Source of the DNA: a virus
Length of the DNA: 38,800 nt
Direction: 5' to 3' (one strand)
Virus record (IMG/VR): IMGVR_UViG_3300006920_000097
Coordinates: 1 to 38,800 of that record
Both the position numbers and the translations under genes were made by a program. Below the pieces are notes generated by a model, which saw nothing but the letters and a program-made list of their open reading frames with translations, was not told the DNA's origin and searched no databases. Position 1 is the first letter of the stretch. Each line of letters starts with the position of its first letter. Of this stretch, positions 7,282-34,864 are shown one piece after another.

Positions 7282-7695
7282 ATGGCTTTCGAGAAACTAA
7301 AACAAAGGAACGCATCTGCGGCTCCACTTATGCCATCTATGCAACATAATCCCGGATCTGCTCCAGCAATTAAAGGTCGACAACCGACCGCAGCTGAACA
7401 AATCGGAATGAGCGCTGCATCCACTGGTGCAACTACTGTCGCAAAGAAGGGTGCTGAAGCACTATTCGCAAAGTTGGCTCCAGCCGCTGTTGCTCCAGCC
7501 GCTGTTGCTCCCATTGCCGCAGCCGCTCCTATTGCCGCAGGTGCCGCAGGTGCTGCTGGTGCTGCTGGCGCAGGTGCTGCAGGTGCAGGTGCACTTGGAT
7601 CTGGACTGATGACTGCTGCAATGTCTAATCCAATTACTGCACCATTAGCTATCGGTGCTGCATTGCTCGGTGGTAAGAAACTAGCAGGTAAGTAA
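7282..7695 (+). CDS. Ala/Gly-rich hydrophobic protein, putative ejection protein
   Basis: A 137-aa protein starting directly after the previous stop. Residues ~55-135 are almost entirely Ala, Gly, Pro, Val and Ile. A Pro-Ala repeat (LAPAAVAPAAVAPIAAAAP) is followed by a Gly-zipper-like stretch (AAGAAGAAGAGAAGAGALGS) and a hydrophobic helix ending GAALLGGKKLAGK. Codon use here is richer in GC than in neighbours and the DNA is visibly repetitive (7481-7605). Such Ala/Gly zippers insert into or pack within membranes. With its position among ejection proteins this suggests a membrane-inserting component of the DNA-translocation channel. This is inference: low-complexity sequence gives no homology signal, and the repeat length may vary between relatives. 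Confidence 0.45.
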   Translation: MAFEKLKQRNASAAPLMPSMQHNPGSAPAIKGRQPTAAEQIGMSAASTGATTVAKKGAEALFAKLAPAAVAPAAVAPIAAAAPIAAGAAGAAGAAGAGAAGAGALGSGLMTAAMSNPITAPLAIGAALLGGKKLAGK

Positions 7696-7696
7696 T

Positions 7697-8467
7697 ATGG
7701 AATATAACGACAGAGACATTGATGTACTCACTAGGACAATCCTTGGTGAAGCTGCAAGTGAAAGTGATGCTGGTCAAACTGCTGTTGCTCATGTTATTCG
7801 TAATAGAGCAGCTGATCCTAGATGGCCTGATACACTATCAGAAGTTGCGCTACAGCGTAAACAGTTTTCTGCATGGAATGAAGGTGTTGGTGGTAATACA
7901 CTAACAGATAAGTATAATCCCGGTGATCCTCAGTATGAGAGAGCTAAGGCTAATGCAATACGCGCATTATCATCTAATGAGGACATTACTGGTGGTGCTA
8001 CACACTACTATTCACCAGCAGGTATGAAGGCTCACAAGGATCGTGGTGAACAACAGAACACAGTACCTAAGTGGCTACAGCAAGAAGCTTCTCGTCGTGA
8101 TGGTAATAATGTTACATTAGGTGGACATGTATTTACAGGTCTACGTCAGGGTGCAGAGAAACCTCTGACAGAGACTTACTATGATCCTGATGGACAACCA
8201 GCGGTTCCACCTGTATCTGATGGTATACCACAGATGCAAGATGAACCAGACTATTCAATAGTTCCACCTATTACAGGTAATGAAATGATTGATGGTACCA
8301 TTGATAACGCAGCTGGAGCACTACTAAGCACTGGTGTTAATGCACTATTGGGCGGTAATAGATCAACACCCACTACACCAGCACCCCCACCACCGCCACC
8401 TATGATGAATATCCAAGGTTCCGGTCCGGTGATATTTAAAATTAAACGTAAGAAGGAGACTAAGTAA
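7697..8467 (+). CDS. SleB-type cell wall hydrolase (Hydrolase_2), virion-associated lysin or endolysin
   Basis: A 256-aa protein. Residues ~8-135 match the SleB/CwlJ hydrolase pattern: LTRTILGEA with the catalytic-type Glu18, then GQTAVAHVIRNRA, QRKQFSAWN and GATHYYSPAGM. Family members cut peptidoglycan glycan strands. The C-terminal ~100 residues are disordered and Pro-rich (TPAPPPPPPMMN), ending in a basic tail. There is no signal peptide. It lies inside the internal virion protein block, like gp16-type or separate tail lysozymes that open the wall during DNA entry. Because no other muralytic gene appears in the window, it might also serve as the endolysin with the upstream holin pair. It overlaps the next start by one base (TAATG). 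Confidence 0.75.
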   Translation: MEYNDRDIDVLTRTILGEAASESDAGQTAVAHVIRNRAADPRWPDTLSEVALQRKQFSAWNEGVGGNTLTDKYNPGDPQYERAKANAIRALSSNEDITGGATHYYSPAGMKAHKDRGEQQNTVPKWLQQEASRRDGNNVTLGGHVFTGLRQGAEKPLTETYYDPDGQPAVPPVSDGIPQMQDEPDYSIVPPITGNEMIDGTIDNAAGALLSTGVNALLGGNRSTPTTPAPPPPPPMMNIQGSGPVIFKIKRKKETK

Positions 8468-10284
8468 TGGAAAGATTCCTACAATCTATTGGTAACCTAT
8501 TTAAGGACAACCAACAGATACCAATGAACCAATCACCTTCTATCGTTAAACTGGCAGAGGGAGAGGATATTATAACAAACAACCCCTCTAGTGGAGTTAT
8601 GAGTACAGGACCACAAGGTGGCCTATTCGGAAACAACCCTATCGGTGGAGTTATGAGTGAAGGACCTTCAGGTGGAATGTTTGGAGAACCTGCTGTAAAC
8701 GCTGGGCAACACCCTAATCCGTATATGCCACAACCTCTTGCACAACCAGTGCCAGCTATTGAGACAGTACAAGATAGTTCTGTAGTAGTACCACCTGTAT
8801 TCGAGGAATCTAGTATTCCGCCTGAACAGAATGAGACTATTAAGGATCTCGGTCAGAGTGAAGAGTATAAGAAGTATATGACTGGTCTTGGTGATGGTCA
8901 AGTTACAATCGCTGACTATGAAGAAGTCTACGGCGGTTATGAAGATAAAAGAACATATGATCCAAAGAAACCCGCATTTAAAGAGAATGGTGAAAGGGTA
9001 TTCTATGGGACAGAAGAAGATAAAGCTAAAGGCCGTAATCGTGTTCGTAGGAAGAAAGCACTATTAGAAGGGAAACCAATAATTGACACTGATATTGATC
9101 CGAGTACTATTACGCCAGAAGAAGCTTCGGAAAGCGAAAAGGTAGCTACAGAACTGACAACTCCGCAAGGACCAGATCAAGTTCCATACGTAGACACTGA
9201 GGGTGCAGTTAAAACACCTAATGGTGGTGAAGTTAATGTAACAGCATCAGACGTTAACAAGGTGAAATCAGAAGATCCATCTGGATGGGCTAAGGCTATG
9301 TCTTGGGCTAATCGTACATTTGGTATCACTGGACAAGACCTTAATCGTTTTGCACTTTTGTATGTAGGTTCTCGTATTGCTGGTTATGACCATAAAGGAT
9401 CCATGAGTTGGAGTTTTGGTACTGCTGCAGAGGGACTAGTTAACCGTGAGAGTATCACAAATGGACTAGCTGGTCAGGGAAAGTACACACCCGCCTCAGT
9501 CGAAGAATATCGGAAGACAGGTGACGTTTCTAAGCTTAAGGCTGTTGATGATCCTAAGAAAGGTATCAAATACGATAGGACTATCCGTAAATACAAGAAA
9601 GGTACTACAACTATTGTACACGAGGCAACTCTGCCCAACGGATCTAAGACTTATGTAGATCTAGCTGGTAAAGAGTATACTGGTGATGTTGTTGATCCTG
9701 ATGATGGAGAGACTCGTACTGAACAACGTGAGACTTCTACTAAGCAGACAGCAAAGATTATGGACCAACATCTTGTCAGACAAGATAAGGATAATCCGTA
9801 TTTCATTGGATCCACTGCTGAAGATGCATCAGTAGTCGAAGACCGACTTGATTCATTCCGAAGAGAGCATGGTGTAGATATAGATTCAGGATTATCGGCA
9901 CGTATTGTTGGTAATGCTTCACGACAAGCTGAACGTTGGGCAGCTGCAACTGGTGGTAAGGTTGAGTCCTTGGCTCCATTTATTGATGCACAGCTTATCT
10001 ATATGGATTCCAACAATGGCTGGTCACAACAGCTTCGTAGTGGTGGTAAGGAACTAAATCCTGACCAGATCTTCAAGCTAAACGATAAGGTACTAAGGTT
10101 CGCGATGAGCGCACCCGGATTCGATCCGAGTACAGTAGATAAAGGAGCTATGCTTAATACATTCATGCAGTATGCATGGGATGAATATGAGAAGCTTCCA
10201 ACTGATAAGAAGAATCAGTTTAATAGTAGGGATGGTTTTTACACCTTCCTAAATACAGAACTCGGTACATCCGTAGAGAAATAG
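8467..10284 (+). CDS. Internal virion protein (gp15-like position), 605 aa
   Basis: The first ~130 residues are Pro/Gly-rich, with a repeated unit GVMSxGPxGGxFG at ~38-75. They continue into a charged, probably flexible region with many Glu, Lys and Asp. From ~275 the protein becomes helical and more ordered (WAKAMSWANRTFGITGQDLNRFALLYVGSR), continuing to the end. I see no catalytic motif and no transmembrane helix. It is the third largest protein of a contiguous ejection-type block and sits where T7 has gp15. The family is not recognised from sequence. Inference: a structural internal virion protein. The N-terminal repeats may be a flexible tether or packing segment. Confidence 0.5.
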   Translation: MERFLQSIGNLFKDNQQIPMNQSPSIVKLAEGEDIITNNPSSGVMSTGPQGGLFGNNPIGGVMSEGPSGGMFGEPAVNAGQHPNPYMPQPLAQPVPAIETVQDSSVVVPPVFEESSIPPEQNETIKDLGQSEEYKKYMTGLGDGQVTIADYEEVYGGYEDKRTYDPKKPAFKENGERVFYGTEEDKAKGRNRVRRKKALLEGKPIIDTDIDPSTITPEEASESEKVATELTTPQGPDQVPYVDTEGAVKTPNGGEVNVTASDVNKVKSEDPSGWAKAMSWANRTFGITGQDLNRFALLYVGSRIAGYDHKGSMSWSFGTAAEGLVNRESITNGLAGQGKYTPASVEEYRKTGDVSKLKAVDDPKKGIKYDRTIRKYKKGTTTIVHEATLPNGSKTYVDLAGKEYTGDVVDPDDGETRTEQRETSTKQTAKIMDQHLVRQDKDNPYFIGSTAEDASVVEDRLDSFRREHGVDIDSGLSARIVGNASRQAERWAAATGGKVESLAPFIDAQLIYMDSNNGWSQQLRSGGKELNPDQIFKLNDKVLRFAMSAPGFDPSTVDKGAMLNTFMQYAWDEYEKLPTDKKNQFNSRDGFYTFLNTELGTSVEK

Positions 10285-17969: not shown

Positions 17970-18149
17970 TCATCGTTCTCTATCTGTAATTACGTTATCT
18001 AGATACGAATTTTTATAATATTCGTCACCACTTTCGTAGAAATCTTTCCACGGTGGTTCTACTTTATCCATATTGTTATTATTCCAACAAACGAGTAATT
18101 CATTATATAAACTAATCGGGATTGAGATATTGAAATCATCCTTCAGCAT
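17970..18149 (-). CDS. Small hypothetical protein (59 aa), last gene of minus block
   Basis: An ATG at 18149 preceded by AAGGAAGAAG opens a 59-codon frame ending at TGA 17972-17970. The protein begins MLKDDFNISIPISLYNELLV, continues CWNNNNMDKVEPPWKDFYES and ends in an acidic/tyrosine-rich tail (ITDRER). The ATG lies 14 bases inside the end of the upstream reading frame, the same kind of overlap seen one repeat earlier. No family recognised. The first 26 codons are duplicated 145 bp upstream, where they are joined to the end of a different gene. The near-synonymous differences between the copies suggest that the frame is real. The CWNNN motif resembles CWDNN in another small protein at 29261-29440. 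Confidence 0.55.
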   Translation of the reverse strand: MLKDDFNISIPISLYNELLVCWNNNNMDKVEPPWKDFYESGDEYYKNSYLDNVITDRER

Positions 18150-18201
18150 TATCTTCTTCCTTCGCTAATTCTAGTGCTACTTTCAGCTTTCCCTTGGTAG
18201 C
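18057..18201. repeat. 145-bp tandem duplication, left copy
   Basis: This segment and 18202-18346 are directly adjacent copies, with about 8 mismatches in 145 positions by my reading. The repeat unit contains, on the minus strand, the last ~22 codons of one small gene and the first ~28 codons of the next. The left copy holds the end of the chimeric frame and the start of the 17970-18149 gene. Confidence 0.9.
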
Positions 18202-18294
18202 TTCTATTCTATCCATATTGTTATTATTCCAACAAACGAGTAATTCATTATATAAACTAATCGGTATTGAGATATCGAAATCATCCTTCAGCAT
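18136..18294 (-). CDS. Chimeric 52-aa frame created by tandem duplication
   Basis: An ATG at 18294 inside the end of the upstream gene opens a 52-codon frame. Its first ~26 residues (MLKDDFDISIPISLYNELLV...) equal the start of the downstream 17970-18149 gene with one change (D for N at residue 7). Its last ~22 (EATKGKLKVALELAKEEDNA...) equal the end of the upstream 18281-18478 gene with one change (L for A). The ribosome site (AAAGAAGAAG) is slightly weaker than that of the downstream copy. Mismatches between copies are mainly synonymous or conservative in these frames, hinting that the chimera is translated and kept. It could also be a recent by-product with no function. Confidence 0.45.
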   Translation of the reverse strand: MLKDDFDISIPISLYNELLVCWNNNNMDRIEATKGKLKVALELAKEEDNAEG

Positions 18295-18346
18295 TATCTT
18301 CTTCTTTCGCTGCTTCCAGTGCTACTTTCAGCTTTCCCTTGGTAGC
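18202..18346. repeat. 145-bp tandem duplication, right copy
   Basis: Second copy of the unit, exactly 145 bp from the left copy (for example the minus-strand stop TCA at 18136 and 18281, and the start CAT at 18147 and 18292). The right copy holds the authentic end of the 18281-18478 gene and the start of the chimeric frame. Because 145 is not a multiple of three, the duplication joins two different reading frames. Confidence 0.9.
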
Positions 18347-18478
18347 TTCTGCTACTTTAAGTAATGCTTTCGTATCTTCTGGACGTGGACGTTTGCCACG
18401 ACCAATAGTAAACCCATGATCAAGGCCTTGTTCATATGCTGCTTGTAGTAGCCACTCTAGGTCATCTTCAACACTCAT
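18281..18478 (-). CDS. Small hypothetical protein (65 aa)
   Basis: An acidic N-terminus (MSVEDDLEWLLQAAYEQGLD) leads to a basic patch (IGRGKRPRPED) and a Lys/Ala/Glu-rich helix ending KEEDNAEG. AAAGGG is spaced 8 bases before ATG 18478, and the start overlaps the upstream stop by four bases (ATGA). No family recognised and no catalytic motif. Its 3' end is inside the 145-bp duplication, so the terminal ~22 residues are also encoded in the chimeric frame. It belongs to the run of small genes downstream of the RNA polymerase, a place where phages often keep host-interaction proteins. Confidence 0.6.
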   Translation of the reverse strand: MSVEDDLEWLLQAAYEQGLDHGFTIGRGKRPRPEDTKALLKVAEATKGKLKVALEAAKEEDNAEG

Positions 18479-21673: not shown

Positions 21674-23460
21674 TACAAGCCAATCCTTTCTCTCATAACC
21701 TCGGGTGATATATTGTCAGCTTTACTGAACAGTTCATCAGCCCTTTCTTCTTGTGTTAATGATGCTGATTTTAATCTACGTGTCTTACCATCATAGTATG
21801 CAGCACCAGCGTCACCAGTTTTACCTGTGAATCGAGCTTTCAGTACCCTGAAGTAGATTGTATTCTTTTCACGTTCATCTGGATCAACCATGTTTCTTGA
21901 GAATGCAATGATATCGAATGAGATCTGTTTGATAGATCCTGATCCCTTGATGTCATCCATAGATGCCATGTGACCTTCTTCGAAGCTCTTACCACCAGAA
22001 CCTGATTTACGTAGGTGTGAGATAATTCCAAGCCATACCGGGAATTGTTTTACTAGTTTCAGAAGATCAGACATCATCTTATCTACTGCTTCATTCCCTG
22101 TTAGCCCATCGTTCCCTTCCGATACTGCGATAGTGATGTGGTCAAGAATAATGTGAGTACAGCCCATAGCACAGAGCGCCCGTAGTTTCTCAATAAGTGA
22201 ATCATCACCGACCGAACCTTGGTGGTCGAGGATAATAACTCTCTCTGATGCAAATAGTTTCTCAAATGCTTTACGTTGTTCACCTTCATCAATCTCCCCT
22301 TCTGTGTCTTGGAAGTTTGTTTCCATCTGCATCTCAATGAACTTCTCTACTGTCTCACCAACATCCTCTTCTAGGCTAACAATACCAAGTTTATTTTCAT
22401 CATTTTGTGTAATGTTGATCATAATCTCTTTTGTTACAGTTGATTTACCAGCACCAGTACCAGATGTTAGGAGTACAATCTCACTTTGACGCATACCATT
22501 TAGTTTTAGGTTGATCCCTGATAGGCAATCTGGGTATGGTTGGGATTTAGTTTCTTTACGCTTCTTGAAACGTTCCCATAGTTCTTCACCCTTTACGAAA
22601 CCTGCAGGTGTGTATGCTTGTGCATTAAAGATCTGGCTAATGATATAGTCAGCTTTTTCTGCCTTTAGAGCATCATTGGCATCCTTGTACTTCTTACAGC
22701 CTACTAGGTGTGCTTTTGGTCCAATGGCCTTTGCATATCGCTGCATGGTATCTTCACCAGCGCCATGTTCATCTTGGTCTGGCCATAGAATGACTTTGTC
22801 AAATGACATAATCCAATTTAGATTATTGATGAACACCTGATCTGCTTTAGAGTTGTACAATGATACTACAGGAAACCTGCGTCCACCATACTTCTGATCG
22901 TATGCTTGTTGAACTGCACATGTATCATCTTCGCCTTCGGTGATTACAAGTATTTTACCACCTGCTTCAAATAGATGCTGCCCGAATAACATACAGTCCT
23001 TTCGGTTCATGATTTGAGTATCACCATGCATATAGAACTGTTTCTTTTGTATTACTTCACCTTTATCGTTTAGTTTCTTATCGATCTTTTGTTTAAAAGC
23101 TACTACTTTGTTATCTCGTAGCCATGGATAATACCTGTGATCAGGCTCTCCATCTTCATTCAATGTAGATCGAACTCCGTAGAACTCATATATTGCTTTA
23201 TATATGTTCCTTTCCTTTGATCCTCTGATTGGCAGATCGTTAATCTGATTCAAAGTCTCAATGATTTCTTCGAAATCTATCTCTTCCATTATTGTATTAT
23301 TCCGTGTTCCCTTGTTATCTTCATAGAAGTATGTCTTATCACATGCTCCGAAGCAGGTCCAATGATCTTCGTAGTATCCTACTGAATCACTGGAACCACA
23401 ATCTTCACATGAATGACGCCCTCTAAGAAGTCTCGGGTTTGATATCGTTGGGTTCATCAT
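21673..23460 (-). CDS. Primase-helicase (T7 gp4-like)
   Basis: From ATG 23460 the protein is 595 aa (T7 gp4A is 566). An upstream TTG at 23502 is in frame but would deepen the overlap with the endonuclease gene. Zinc-binding primase N-terminus: HSCEDCGSSDS...HWTCFGACDK (Cys18, 21, 36, 40). Toprim-like primase core: VITEGEDD (~174-179) and ILWPDQDEHG. RecA-like helicase: Walker A SGTGAGKST (~333-341), CTHIILDHI (Walker B-like, D440), then GSIKQISFDIIAFSRN (motif 4/arginine region). It makes RNA primers and unwinds DNA 5'-3' at the fork, working with the gp5-like polymerase. The zinc domain would be lost with any start further downstream. Confidence 0.93.
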   Translation of the reverse strand: MMNPTISNPRLLRGRHSCEDCGSSDSVGYYEDHWTCFGACDKTYFYEDNKGTRNNTIMEEIDFEEIIETLNQINDLPIRGSKERNIYKAIYEFYGVRSTLNEDGEPDHRYYPWLRDNKVVAFKQKIDKKLNDKGEVIQKKQFYMHGDTQIMNRKDCMLFGQHLFEAGGKILVITEGEDDTCAVQQAYDQKYGGRRFPVVSLYNSKADQVFINNLNWIMSFDKVILWPDQDEHGAGEDTMQRYAKAIGPKAHLVGCKKYKDANDALKAEKADYIISQIFNAQAYTPAGFVKGEELWERFKKRKETKSQPYPDCLSGINLKLNGMRQSEIVLLTSGTGAGKSTVTKEIMINITQNDENKLGIVSLEEDVGETVEKFIEMQMETNFQDTEGEIDEGEQRKAFEKLFASERVIILDHQGSVGDDSLIEKLRALCAMGCTHIILDHITIAVSEGNDGLTGNEAVDKMMSDLLKLVKQFPVWLGIISHLRKSGSGGKSFEEGHMASMDDIKGSGSIKQISFDIIAFSRNMVDPDEREKNTIYFRVLKARFTGKTGDAGAAYYDGKTRRLKSASLTQEERADELFSKADNISPEVMRERIGL

Positions 23461-24016
23461 CGGCTGGTTTATCTCTGCAGTTATCGTTATGCCATCTTGC
23501 AAGGTTAGCTATATCACATGTAATGTCACAGTGTTTACATGTATCCTTTGGTAGTAAGTAAGCTTTCTTACGTAGTTTCTCCCGAGTACTTTCTGCAACA
23601 ATCTTTGGCGGTAAGAACTTAATTGCTCCGATTGCCTTGTTGTAGTATTTCCTCGTTCCGCATAACATTACATCTGTCAATACATTCATATCGTGTTGAA
23701 GCTTTGTCTCTGTAAATGTTAGCTCTGCTTGTGTCTCACATTCACATAATGTAATAAAGGAGAATTTATCTTTCCCCAGCTTCTCAATATCTTCATTCAG
23801 TTCTGCTGATGATCCTGTGTAAGATCGCCAAGCCATCTCCTTGAATTGTTTCCGCTTACGCTTCTTACCTTTCAACGGTGGCAGTGTCAGTACTGAGAAG
23901 TATTTCTTCTTACCAATGTATGCTCTTTGTGTATCATTATTCATGATTAAGTATATGAAGCCTTGGTATTTACTAGGCATCATCTCTCTGTCGAATTCCC
24001 AATGACCATTATCCAT
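23423..24016 (-). CDS. SegE-like GIY-YIG endonuclease with C-terminal zinc finger
   Basis: A 197-aa protein. Residues ~17-105 form a GIY-YIG-type nuclease: GFIYLIMNN...AYIGKKKYFSV, LPPLKGKKRKRK, then WRSYTGSSAELNEDIEKLGK, a pattern shared with T4 SegE-like proteins. The C-terminus holds CKHCDITCDIANLARWHNDN followed by Cys, a Cys2-His-Cys finger typical of this family. The start overlaps the exonuclease stop by 8 bases. The gene may be a free-standing homing endonuclease, or may serve the DNA-degradation/junction role that T7 assigns to gp3, whose position it takes between exonuclease and primase. The second possibility is inference. No endonuclease I-like gene appears elsewhere in the window. 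Confidence 0.75.
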   Translation of the reverse strand: MDNGHWEFDREMMPSKYQGFIYLIMNNDTQRAYIGKKKYFSVLTLPPLKGKKRKRKQFKEMAWRSYTGSSAELNEDIEKLGKDKFSFITLCECETQAELTFTETKLQHDMNVLTDVMLCGTRKYYNKAIGAIKFLPPKIVAESTREKLRKKAYLLPKDTCKHCDITCDIANLARWHNDNCRDKPADDEPNDIKPETS

Positions 24017-27108: not shown

Positions 27109-29025
27109 CTAGTTAATGTCGACAATCTCACATGATCCACCGGAACATGCGAATGTCTGTGATCCAGATGTATTGTCTTCAAGTTCAAAATCACTAAGTT
27201 GTGACCAGTCAATGTTTTTAGGCATTGCCTCTTGTAGCTCTTCATACTCTGATTTTGTTATCTCTTGGTAAGGTGCTTGTTGGTAGACATGATCGTCATA
27301 CGGCAAGAACGAGATACCTGAGATCTCATCGAAGTTTTTGTATACCCATGCACCAACTTCCAACCATTCGTGATCTCTCACATTGATAGTTACTGATGGT
27401 TTATGTTCACACCAACCACGTTGGAACTTTAGCCAGAACTCTAGTTGTTCTAATGCTGTCCAATCTTTGGCTTTAACTGCTCCCTCTGGAGCCTTCATCG
27501 GGAATGAGAATACTGTCGTTGCGTCAGGTTTCATAACGCATGGTTCATTAGGAACTCCCATCCATTTCATGAACTCTGTTAGTGGATCTTTATTATCACC
27601 CCTTACTGTGCGGATGTAATAATCTGCGTATCTTGCGTGGATTCCTGAGGAAGTATCTGTTAGCTGAGATACCGTTCCACTTGGCTTAACGCAGGTGATC
27701 GCAGCTGATTCCGGTATACCAAGTGCCTTGGCAAATTCTGAGTTGACCTCAACAGTGAAAGCTCTGAGTTCGTCAAGGGTTTCCTCTGAACACTCTCTGA
27801 GGAATTCTGAATCCATGATTCCGGTGATTGAGACACCGAGCAATGATTCTTCTTTTGTGTTGGTATGCCAAATATCTCTAAGGTACGGGAAGTTAGTGAG
27901 GGACGATTGAATCGTTCCAAGTACCGTAGCAACCCAGATTTTATCTTTAAGTGTTTCATGTGTATCTTCCTGTCTTGCAATTACTTCTGTCAGGTTACAG
28001 AATTGGTATGGTCTTAGAATAATCTCTGAACATGGGTTTGTCCCAAATTGGATTAATTCTTTTGATCCTAGTAGACTAGATTTACGTCGTCCGTATTTGT
28101 CTACTTGTTTCTGTGAAGCAACACGATTAAAGATACCCCTTTCACCTGACTTTGATTCCATCAACGCTAACCATTCTCGGATGAATGATTCTGTGTCTGG
28201 CTTTTCTGTGTATGCAATACTATTGTTTGCTAATGCTCGTTGTTTCTCATTATCGTACCAAGCTCCCATCTTTGCAGTTCGCATCCGTTGGTCGGACAGG
28301 TTACTAAGTGAGATCATTGCTGATCGTCTTACACCACCAACTACAACTACTTCACCAATCTTACACATGATGTCATGGCACTCTAGTGAGTTCAACTTTC
28401 GTCCTTGTGCATTCTTAAATGTTTGCAACATGAAATCAAACAGCTCTAATAGTGGTGCTGGTCCAGATGCTCGTCCACCAAATGTCTTTAGTCGTGCACC
28501 TGCTGGTCTTACATTATCTATATTAGTTGTTGGAATTAATCCATCATATAATGATGATATAAACTTCCTTAGACTATCTGCCCAACCTTCTTTTGAGTCA
28601 CCTACATCGATTATTACTTCACTGAAGTTTAGTGTTGGTACTTCTGGTAGTTTATTTACATCTTGTCGTTCTACTGAGAATCCTACCCCTGTACCACATA
28701 GTAGGATGAACATAGCTTCATCAAATGATCTCATATCATCTACGGGTAGGTATGCACAATTAAATGCGCATGTATTGTCACGTTCTAGTGCTGGTCCTGC
28801 AGTCATCATCGCTCGCATAGAAGGCATAACTTCCATCGCTTTGATTGCTTTCCTCAGCTTCATGATAACTTCTTCCGAGTTCTTCATTTTAGATTTAGAC
28901 ATTGCTGGTACAACAACACTATCTACGTAACGATCTACAGTTTCCTCGTAAGATTCTCTTCGGTTTTCTTCTTCCAGCCATCGTGCATAGCGGCTGGTTG
29001 CTATAAATTTTTGATAGTCGTTCAT
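27109..29025 (-). CDS. nrdJ: Class II (adenosylcobalamin-dependent) ribonucleotide reductase
   Basis: A 638-aa monomeric NrdJ type. Substrate-site residues: NTCAFNCAYLPVDD (Cys86), TNPCSEIIL (N330, thiyl-radical Cys332, E334) and QFCNLTEV (Cys343). The C-terminal swinging redox pair is CSGGSC (Cys627, Cys632). FILLCGTGVGFSVER and RPAGARLKTFGGRASGP are typical of the family. It converts ribonucleotides to deoxyribonucleotides using B12, with no separate small subunit, so the host must supply cobalamin. AAGGGAAAT precedes the ATG. The glutaredoxin gene is immediately upstream in the transcript (9 bases between) and probably reduces the C-terminal cysteines. Somewhat shorter than the Lactobacillus enzyme (~740 aa). 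Confidence 0.95.
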   Translation of the reverse strand: MNDYQKFIATSRYARWLEEENRRESYEETVDRYVDSVVVPAMSKSKMKNSEEVIMKLRKAIKAMEVMPSMRAMMTAGPALERDNTCAFNCAYLPVDDMRSFDEAMFILLCGTGVGFSVERQDVNKLPEVPTLNFSEVIIDVGDSKEGWADSLRKFISSLYDGLIPTTNIDNVRPAGARLKTFGGRASGPAPLLELFDFMLQTFKNAQGRKLNSLECHDIMCKIGEVVVVGGVRRSAMISLSNLSDQRMRTAKMGAWYDNEKQRALANNSIAYTEKPDTESFIREWLALMESKSGERGIFNRVASQKQVDKYGRRKSSLLGSKELIQFGTNPCSEIILRPYQFCNLTEVIARQEDTHETLKDKIWVATVLGTIQSSLTNFPYLRDIWHTNTKEESLLGVSITGIMDSEFLRECSEETLDELRAFTVEVNSEFAKALGIPESAAITCVKPSGTVSQLTDTSSGIHARYADYYIRTVRGDNKDPLTEFMKWMGVPNEPCVMKPDATTVFSFPMKAPEGAVKAKDWTALEQLEFWLKFQRGWCEHKPSVTINVRDHEWLEVGAWVYKNFDEISGISFLPYDDHVYQQAPYQEITKSEYEELQEAMPKNIDWSQLSDFELEDNTSGSQTFACSGGSCEIVDIN

Positions 29026-29271: not shown

Positions 29272-29440
29272 CTAGATAAATCCTATCTAATTCCCAACAT
29301 TTATGGTTTAGTACAATACCATTATTATCCCAACATTCATTCTTATATTGGGTTTCTCTATGTAACGCTCCACCTAACGTTAAGATTAGGCCTATCGTTA
29401 ATGCTACATATACCATAAAGTGTAGTTTAGCTAATGACAT
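29261..29440 (-). CDS. Small membrane-anchored protein with paired CW motifs (59 aa)
   Basis: ATG 29440, preceded by AAAGGG, opens a 59-codon frame that overlaps both neighbours (14 bases with thyX, 11 with glutaredoxin). An N-terminal hydrophobic helix (FMVYVALTIGLILTLGGAL) is followed by a short polar domain with two Cys-Trp pairs: NECWDNNGIV and NHKCWELDRI. The polar part may be periplasmic, with the two cysteines forming a disulfide. The family is not recognised. It fills an otherwise empty 155-base gap in a tightly packed operon. Confidence 0.6.
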   Translation of the reverse strand: MSLAKLHFMVYVALTIGLILTLGGALHRETQYKNECWDNNGIVLNHKCWELDRIYLDGE

Positions 29441-30152
29441 TAGTATACCCTTTCATCATAGGGAATACTTTCTGTATAGCTTCTGACATCAGTAGAGCTA
29501 ACATCATGTGTTCTTTTTGAGTTCCGTTTGCTGATCGTAGTTCAATGTAGTGTAGCCAGCTTCTCAGTGATCCCTTCATAAAGCCCCTAGTTGTTGTTAG
29601 GCCTTCGGGTAGAACCTTACGTGCGATCTCTTTGGCCAATCCTTTGGCAATGGCTTCTTGATATACGACTTTCGAGAGATTCGCGACAGCCTCTTGTTGC
29701 TCATCCCACCAACATTGCAGTGCGGCTTGGCTAGTATTTGAGAGATCCAATTCGGTTGAGCTTTGACGGTTCTTTTCATCTTGTAGCCTCGCTTCTGAAT
29801 ATACAAATTCAATTGCTTGATCATCATTAGTCAGAGCTTCTGCATAACGCTGAGAGAACTCTTGGAATGAGAATGACCTATGTCGTACAATTTGATGGCT
29901 GATATCTCTAGTTGTCTTGAATTCAATTGTTACATCTGCCATCTCTAGAGGCGACCAGTGTGCATTATCCATCAGGTAGTTGATTAACTTATCAGCATGT
30001 TCCATATCTGCTTGTTTGAATGAAGATGGATTAGATACCTTTGCAGCGTATGCGATAAGTTCCTGTAGTCCTTCTAGCTCTTCTGTATAATCTGGATTTA
30101 GTACTGTATAGCTAAATAGTTTTCCAGTTACTATTTCATCATAACTCTTCAT
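29427..30152 (-). CDS. thyX: Flavin-dependent thymidylate synthase ThyX
   Basis: A 241-aa protein, normal for the family. The ThyX signature RHRx7S appears as RHRSFSFQEFSQRYAE (R90-H91-R92 ... S100). Further family features are HWSPLEMADVTIEF near 65-78 and the C-terminal RSWLHYIELRS segment. It makes dTMP from dUMP using FAD, NADPH and methylene-tetrahydrofolate, and works with the reductase, glutaredoxin and dNMP kinase of the same cluster. The start overlaps the upstream stop (TAATG). Confidence 0.95.
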   Translation of the reverse strand: MKSYDEIVTGKLFSYTVLNPDYTEELEGLQELIAYAAKVSNPSSFKQADMEHADKLINYLMDNAHWSPLEMADVTIEFKTTRDISHQIVRHRSFSFQEFSQRYAEALTNDDQAIEFVYSEARLQDEKNRQSSTELDLSNTSQAALQCWWDEQQEAVANLSKVVYQEAIAKGLAKEIARKVLPEGLTTTRGFMKGSLRSWLHYIELRSANGTQKEHMMLALLMSEAIQKVFPMMKGYTNVIS

Positions 30153-34132: not shown

Positions 34133-34864
34133 CTAGGTGTCGATTACGAAACCTGACTTGTCTTTCTTCGCAGATCCTTTTGCATATAGACCTACTATTG
34201 AGTTTTTCTTATCTAGGAACCTTAGATCATCTTCATCACCGTTAATAACTTTCCAGTTTAGGAACTTCTTTGGAAAATCCTTTGTCCTGAAAACTACTGC
34301 TATATTCATACCTGCCTTTTTAGCCTGTGTAAAGTACTTTGAGTACTTCTCATTAGCTTCTGAGTAAGACCACGTTAAATGATAGTTTTTCAGTAGTGAG
34401 ATCTTACGGTTTGGTATTTTTGTATAGTCATAGAACTGTACATCTGGAAATGCTTCGAATACTGACTTCTTATTTTTATCTTTAATAAGTTCCCAACGTA
34501 TGTCCGACGTTCCATTTAATCTTACGGCTGGTATCTTGTTATGTTTCTTGCAGAACTTTACGAATCTATCTATATCTTTGTATAGTAGTTCCATAAATTC
34601 ATCTTTGTTCTCCAAGAACTTCCTAGTCTTCCTGATACGCGCATTCTGAATTGATGTGAATTTACCTCGTCCGGCTGTATTTAGACATGGTTCGTGACAA
34701 CCTGCCATCTCTGCCATAGAGCATACATTACCAAGACCTGCTAGTTTATATGGTGCTAGGTACATAACTGCTGTTAAGTATTCTCTATCACCTTTCACTG
34801 TCTTGGCATTAGATCCTGCATTTATAGTCTTTGATGAGAATGTTAACTTCTTTTCTTTTGTCAT
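34133..34864 (-). CDS. GP88-like conserved phage protein with cysteine cluster
   Basis: A 243-aa protein. The central signature is YLAPYKLAGLGNVCSMAEMA then GCHEPCLNTAGRG (~33-66), the cysteine-rich pattern (LAP...C...GCxxxCLxxxGRG) of the GP88 family seen in many phages. Further conserved features are AVRLNGTSDIRWE (~113-125) and FYDYTKIPNR (~144-153). The remainder is a soluble alpha/beta fold ending in a basic tail. The four cysteines could bind a metal or iron-sulfur cluster. The family's reaction is, to my knowledge, unknown. The start overlaps the upstream gene by four bases (ATGA). Confidence 0.6.
   Translation of the reverse strand: MTKEKKLTFSSKTINAGSNAKTVKGDREYLTAVMYLAPYKLAGLGNVCSMAEMAGCHEPCLNTAGRGKFTSIQNARIRKTRKFLENKDEFMELLYKDIDRFVKFCKKHNKIPAVRLNGTSDIRWELIKDKNKKSVFEAFPDVQFYDYTKIPNRKISLLKNYHLTWSYSEANEKYSKYFTQAKKAGMNIAVVFRTKDFPKKFLNWKVINGDEDDLRFLDKKNSIVGLYAKGSAKKDKSGFVIDT

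Follow-up and report, generated by a model that had tools for sequence, protein, structure and literature searches.

The question raised by this locus is whether a tandem duplication lying across the overlap of two small phage genes has produced a new gene or only a new open reading frame. The window, meaning the whole stretch of 38,800 nucleotides that was analysed, represents the 38.8 kb record IMGVR_UViG_3300006920_000097 of a T7-like marine phage, as identified from a PF00940 RNA polymerase (E 4e-56) together with a DnaB-like helicase, a family A DNA polymerase and a 5'-3' exonuclease. These genes are encoded in a minus-strand block along with a B12-type ribonucleotide reductase and ThyX, and the large plus-strand genes, which are probably the virion genes, converge on this block. 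The nearest named T7-like marine phage is Roseobacter phage CRP-7, whose RNA polymerase is 38% identical to that of the window and which similarly has small genes and convergent large genes after a single-subunit RNA polymerase, but which has no match to ORF B, the downstream one of the two small genes considered here. Elsewhere in the window, a free-standing SegE-type GIY-YIG endonuclease gene (23423-24016, minus strand; PF19835, E 2.6e-30) is located between the exonuclease and helicase genes and overlaps the start of the longest helicase ORF (TTG at 23502). The class II B12-dependent ribonucleotide reductase is at 27109-29025 (minus strand; its Pfam matches are rather weak, best E 8.5e-10), ThyX at 29427-30152, and a Gp88-like protein at 34133-34864.

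The duplication is situated at the end of the minus-strand block and is the sole long-unit tandem repeat in the window. Tandem Repeats Finder gave a score of 532 with a period of 145 for an array at 18057-18350, which is far above chance; with four bases in excess of two units, the unit edges can be fixed only to within TTCT (AGAA on the gene strand). The two copies abut, with no indels and exactly 8 mismatches between them (94% identity; 5.5% difference), so that the first-pass annotation, which had reported two adjacent 145-bp copies with about 8 mismatches spanning the overlap of two small minus-strand genes, was right in coordinates, count and position. Along the minus strand the order is gene A, then the head of ORF B fused to the tail of gene A (ORF C), then ORF B, and a 14-nt overlap, with the ATG inside the preceding gene, is found at both A/C and C/B. 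The features are collected in Table 1.

Table 1. Features of the duplicated locus, in order of position in the window
Feature	Position	Strand	Basis or context
Bidirectional terminator hairpin between the convergent gene blocks	17883..17940		fold -24.5 kcal/mol
ORF B, 59 aa, orphan, downstream partner	17970..18149	-	coding score z 3.3 for the whole ORF
B-side breakpoint, short repeat TAAAGTAGAA, then CCACCG	18057..18066	-	AAA GTA in the same phase as in A
Downstream copy of the unit (A tail + B head), differing from the upstream copy at 8 positions	18057..18201	-	repeat and codon assignment, Tandem Repeats Finder
Chimeric ORF C, 52 aa	18136..18294	-	ORF list and codon assignment
Upstream copy of the unit (A tail + B head)	18202..18346	-	repeat and codon assignment, Tandem Repeats Finder
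Gene A, 65 aa, conserved small protein, upstream partner	18281..18478	-	homologues in relatives; coding score z 5.3
A-side breakpoint, short repeat TAAAGTAGCAGAA, then GCTACC	18347..18359	-	sequence context

Gene A carries the motif GLxxGFxxGxxxxPRPED, and its last 21 codons fall in the upstream copy. ORF B is probably coding as well, since the portion outside the repeat by itself reaches a coding score of z 2.9. No homologue of ORF B was found in the phage collection, IMG/VR, the GTDB species genomes or 10 related records, in scans that use short peptide patterns and by which relatives can be missed, and a comparison with phages at E values up to 10 returned chance-level matches only (best E 4). 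The possibility that ORF B is a diverged copy of another part of the window was also considered, and no credible match was obtained. Searches of Pfam and PHROGs with A, B and C gave nothing significant; a LicD match for ORF C (E 0.028) was under the Pfam cut-off and was discarded.

Codons 1-31 of ORF C are the head of B, from the upstream copy, and codons 32-52 together with the stop are the tail of A, from the downstream copy, so the start of the downstream gene is joined in frame to the end of the upstream gene while A and B both remain complete on either side. The new 52-codon frame and its ATG overlap had been recognised in the first-pass annotation, whose figure of about 22 codons for the tail holds (21 plus the stop), whereas its figure of about 26 for the head falls short of the 31 counted here. 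The ribosome site that it had ascribed to C is present (AAAGAAG) but weak, with a Shine-Dalgarno energy of -1.8 kcal/mol in comparison to -5.7 kcal/mol for the AAGGAAG of B, -4.4 for A, and -3.0 to -9.3 for 16 yardstick genes, making it the weakest of all those compared; the difference between C and B comes from one synonymous A/G change. No counterpart of C was found elsewhere in the searches, nor a second genome that carries it.

Related contigs were also compared, as the first-pass annotation had suggested. Single-query scans with A, B and the 89-aa protein encoded before A gave nothing and a nucleotide search of the phage collection gave no match, while alignment queries retrieved the relatives. 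Gene A is conserved in four of them, where it follows the RNA polymerase gene and the 89-aa gene, with 38-54% identity for gene A (L002/L006, L004 and L010) and 74-78% for the polymerase (78% over the part held in L002 and L006). In L002, L006 and L004 no further gene follows A before a bidirectional terminator, which is found within about 15 nt of its stop, and neither ORF B nor the duplication is present in any of the four. The window hairpin, whose counterpart directly follows gene A in both L002 and L004, has 79% identity to the one in L002, and because the two terminators are homologous, ORF B and the repeat lie between gene A and a conserved terminator. Relative to the genes on either side, the window hairpin is matched by that of L002/L006 in reverse orientation, as though the palindrome were flipped in one lineage, and a distant hairpin in L005 shows the other orientation in its match. 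Another relative, L005 (RNA polymerase 74%), has no recognisable gene A at this spot; its region 7492-9498 holds a different gene set after the 89-aa gene, including, as judged by eye, an apparent ATP-dependent DNA ligase, and the operon end is thus a variable spot among the relatives. Among 36 related loci only one tandem array with a unit of at least 30 bp was found, with a 33-bp unit in L007.

Since the relatives carry A but neither B nor the repeat, and no homologue of B was found, ORF B and the duplication appear to be lineage-specific, and the duplication looks derived. A single-copy relative with the A-B arrangement was not found among the relatives examined, those without the duplication being also without B, and the polarity of the duplication therefore rests on the B-less relatives and parsimony.

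The breakpoints point to how the array could have arisen. The contexts are CTTAAAGTAGCAGAA followed by GCTACC in A and GATAAAGTAGAA followed by CCACCG in B, and the junction reads GATAGAATAGAA followed by GCTACC. The breakpoints share AGAA at the crossover and, just beyond it and displaced by one codon, the short direct repeat TAAAGTAG; AAA GTA is in coding phase (K V) in both genes, so that an exchange there gives an in-frame fusion. Because both repeats have the same codon phase, the open chimeric frame is automatic and ends at the old stop of A; in general, such a frame follows by construction in one third of such duplications, depending on the remainder of the unit length and barring a stop in the junction codon. 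We propose an ancestor in which gene A was followed by an overlapping ORF B, itself lineage-specific at this place, just before the convergent terminator, and in which slippage or illegitimate recombination between the in-phase repeats (CTT AAA GTA GCA GAA in A and GAT AAA GTA GAA in B) would have duplicated 145 bp, with the junction running from the frame of B directly into that of A. The copies would have diverged later at 8 sites, or would have come from strains already diverged. Also located in the tail of A, a 31-nt stretch (within 18320-18380) is imperfectly repeated (74%) beside the duplication edge (LKVAEA / LKVALEA), and this may favour slippage.

The closest precedent is that of the chimeric sigH genes of Staphylococcus aureus, in which short-junction tandem duplications between direct repeats of 7-8 bp make chimeric genes (PMC3486894). 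There too the chimera consists of the start of the downstream gene joined in frame to the main part of the upstream gene, both genes remain intact on either side of it, and it is headed by the start codon and ribosome site of the downstream gene. The sigH units, however, were laboratory-derived and had lengths of 1210 and 1888 bp, in comparison to a 145-bp unit across a 14-nt gene overlap in a phage. The sigH fusion protein was also detected by Western blotting and that duplication is readily lost by reversion, whereas the present chimera is a predicted product and its two unit copies show 8 differences. Within the literature searched, no phage case of this geometry was found, an absence that is no proof of absence elsewhere. 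The tandem duplication with its chimeric ORF is real, and in view of the breakpoints and this precedent we consider it probable (roughly 0.7) that it arose by short-junction duplication, a known and mechanistically ordinary kind of event, with any function of C being putative.

A misjoining of strain variants in the metagenome assembly or library would account for two copies that differ as strain variants do, in a record consisting of a single contig. This is very improbable, since the junction (ATGGATAGAATAGAA followed by GCTACC) is unique sequence in which only 4 bases overlap exactly, too short for a k-mer assembler alone to join, and two changes beside it are absent from the other copy. 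A further variant of the duplication, not exclusive of it, is unequal recombination between two co-infecting strains about 5% diverged, which would have joined the A tail and B head of one strain to those of the other. The 8 differences would then predate the duplication and be silent on its age and on selection, and an unstable repeat would not have had to survive for long to account for them; old standing variation also fits a codon in which two neighbouring bases are changed (GC/TT), and mixed populations are normal in sea water. On the other hand, no sister strains with the two parental types were found, and the same short-repeat breakpoint is still needed, and we regard this origin as possible, with the odds somewhat against it.

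To what extent the 8 differences tell of selection was evaluated by a simulation in which 8 random changes were introduced at the observed transition:transversion ratio. Three of the differences are synonymous and the other five base changes give 4 replacements (I/V, R/K, D/N and A/L), of which all but one are conservative, and of the first-pass statement that the differences are mostly synonymous or conservative, the 'mostly synonymous' part is thus not borne out. Replacements numbered 4 in comparison to 6.0 expected, with a probability of 0.135 for 4 or fewer (0.18 among intact outcomes), and codon positions 1, 2 and 3 were hit evenly (3/2/3). All three frames are still open, an outcome reached in 57% of the simulated runs (76% for C alone). 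No excess of synonymous or third-position change was therefore seen as a sign of purifying selection, at a power that is low with only 8 changes; the pattern is compatible with no selection, and with so few changes selection is neither demonstrated nor ruled out. Since the array stays undamaged by chance in more than half of the runs and codon positions are evenly hit, the divergence is no proof that C is translated. The claim that all three frames are translated is unsupported, given a pattern like that of unselected divergence, the weak site of C and its single occurrence.

That C is a new functional gene under selection, encoding a two-helix protein (the head of B plus the charged C-terminal helix of A) and translated by coupling to A, appears unlikely. 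Its frame stayed open after 8 substitutions with mostly conservative replacements, its start overlaps the stop of A, and the repeat persists at its present divergence; moreover, a single-sequence AlphaFold model of C gave a helix-helix hairpin with a mean pLDDT of 81, in comparison to 60 for the model of B. C could fold according to this model, which says nothing on whether C is made, and short helical peptides often get confident in silico folds; the lack of any statistical sign of constraint, the weakest Shine-Dalgarno sequence of those compared and the failure to find a second genome with C also speak against it. We are likewise doubtful, and rather more than mildly so, of the stronger proposal that a single duplication spanning a gene overlap in a lytic phage gave rise to a translated, selected protein, an event made likely by the in-phase repeats, and that the translational coupling of B is preserved by the A-C-B overlap chain.

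Under the ordinary duplication that we favour, C most likely began as a by-product. If C is translated, coupling to the termination of A is the likely route, and its main effect would be to keep the A-C-B chain of stop/start overlaps unbroken, so that B would stay translationally coupled. Against the view of C as a by-product, the divergence of the copies points either to a repeat that has lasted for some time or to unequal exchange between strains that had already diverged, and as neutral tandem repeats tend to be lost through recombination between copies, the persistence of this one hints at some benefit. Of the new-gene birth announced in the first-pass annotation, the tandem duplication across the overlap and its in-frame, derived-looking chimeric ORF stand; they show a new open frame, and the birth of a new gene is possible.

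Even as a by-product, C illustrates that one third of duplications across overlapping genes yield an open chimeric frame at no cost, and an open frame is thus no evidence of function in such arrays. If C is translated and kept, the locus would offer a dissectable case of gene birth in a phage, in which the product lies next to the parts of the two overlapping parent genes.
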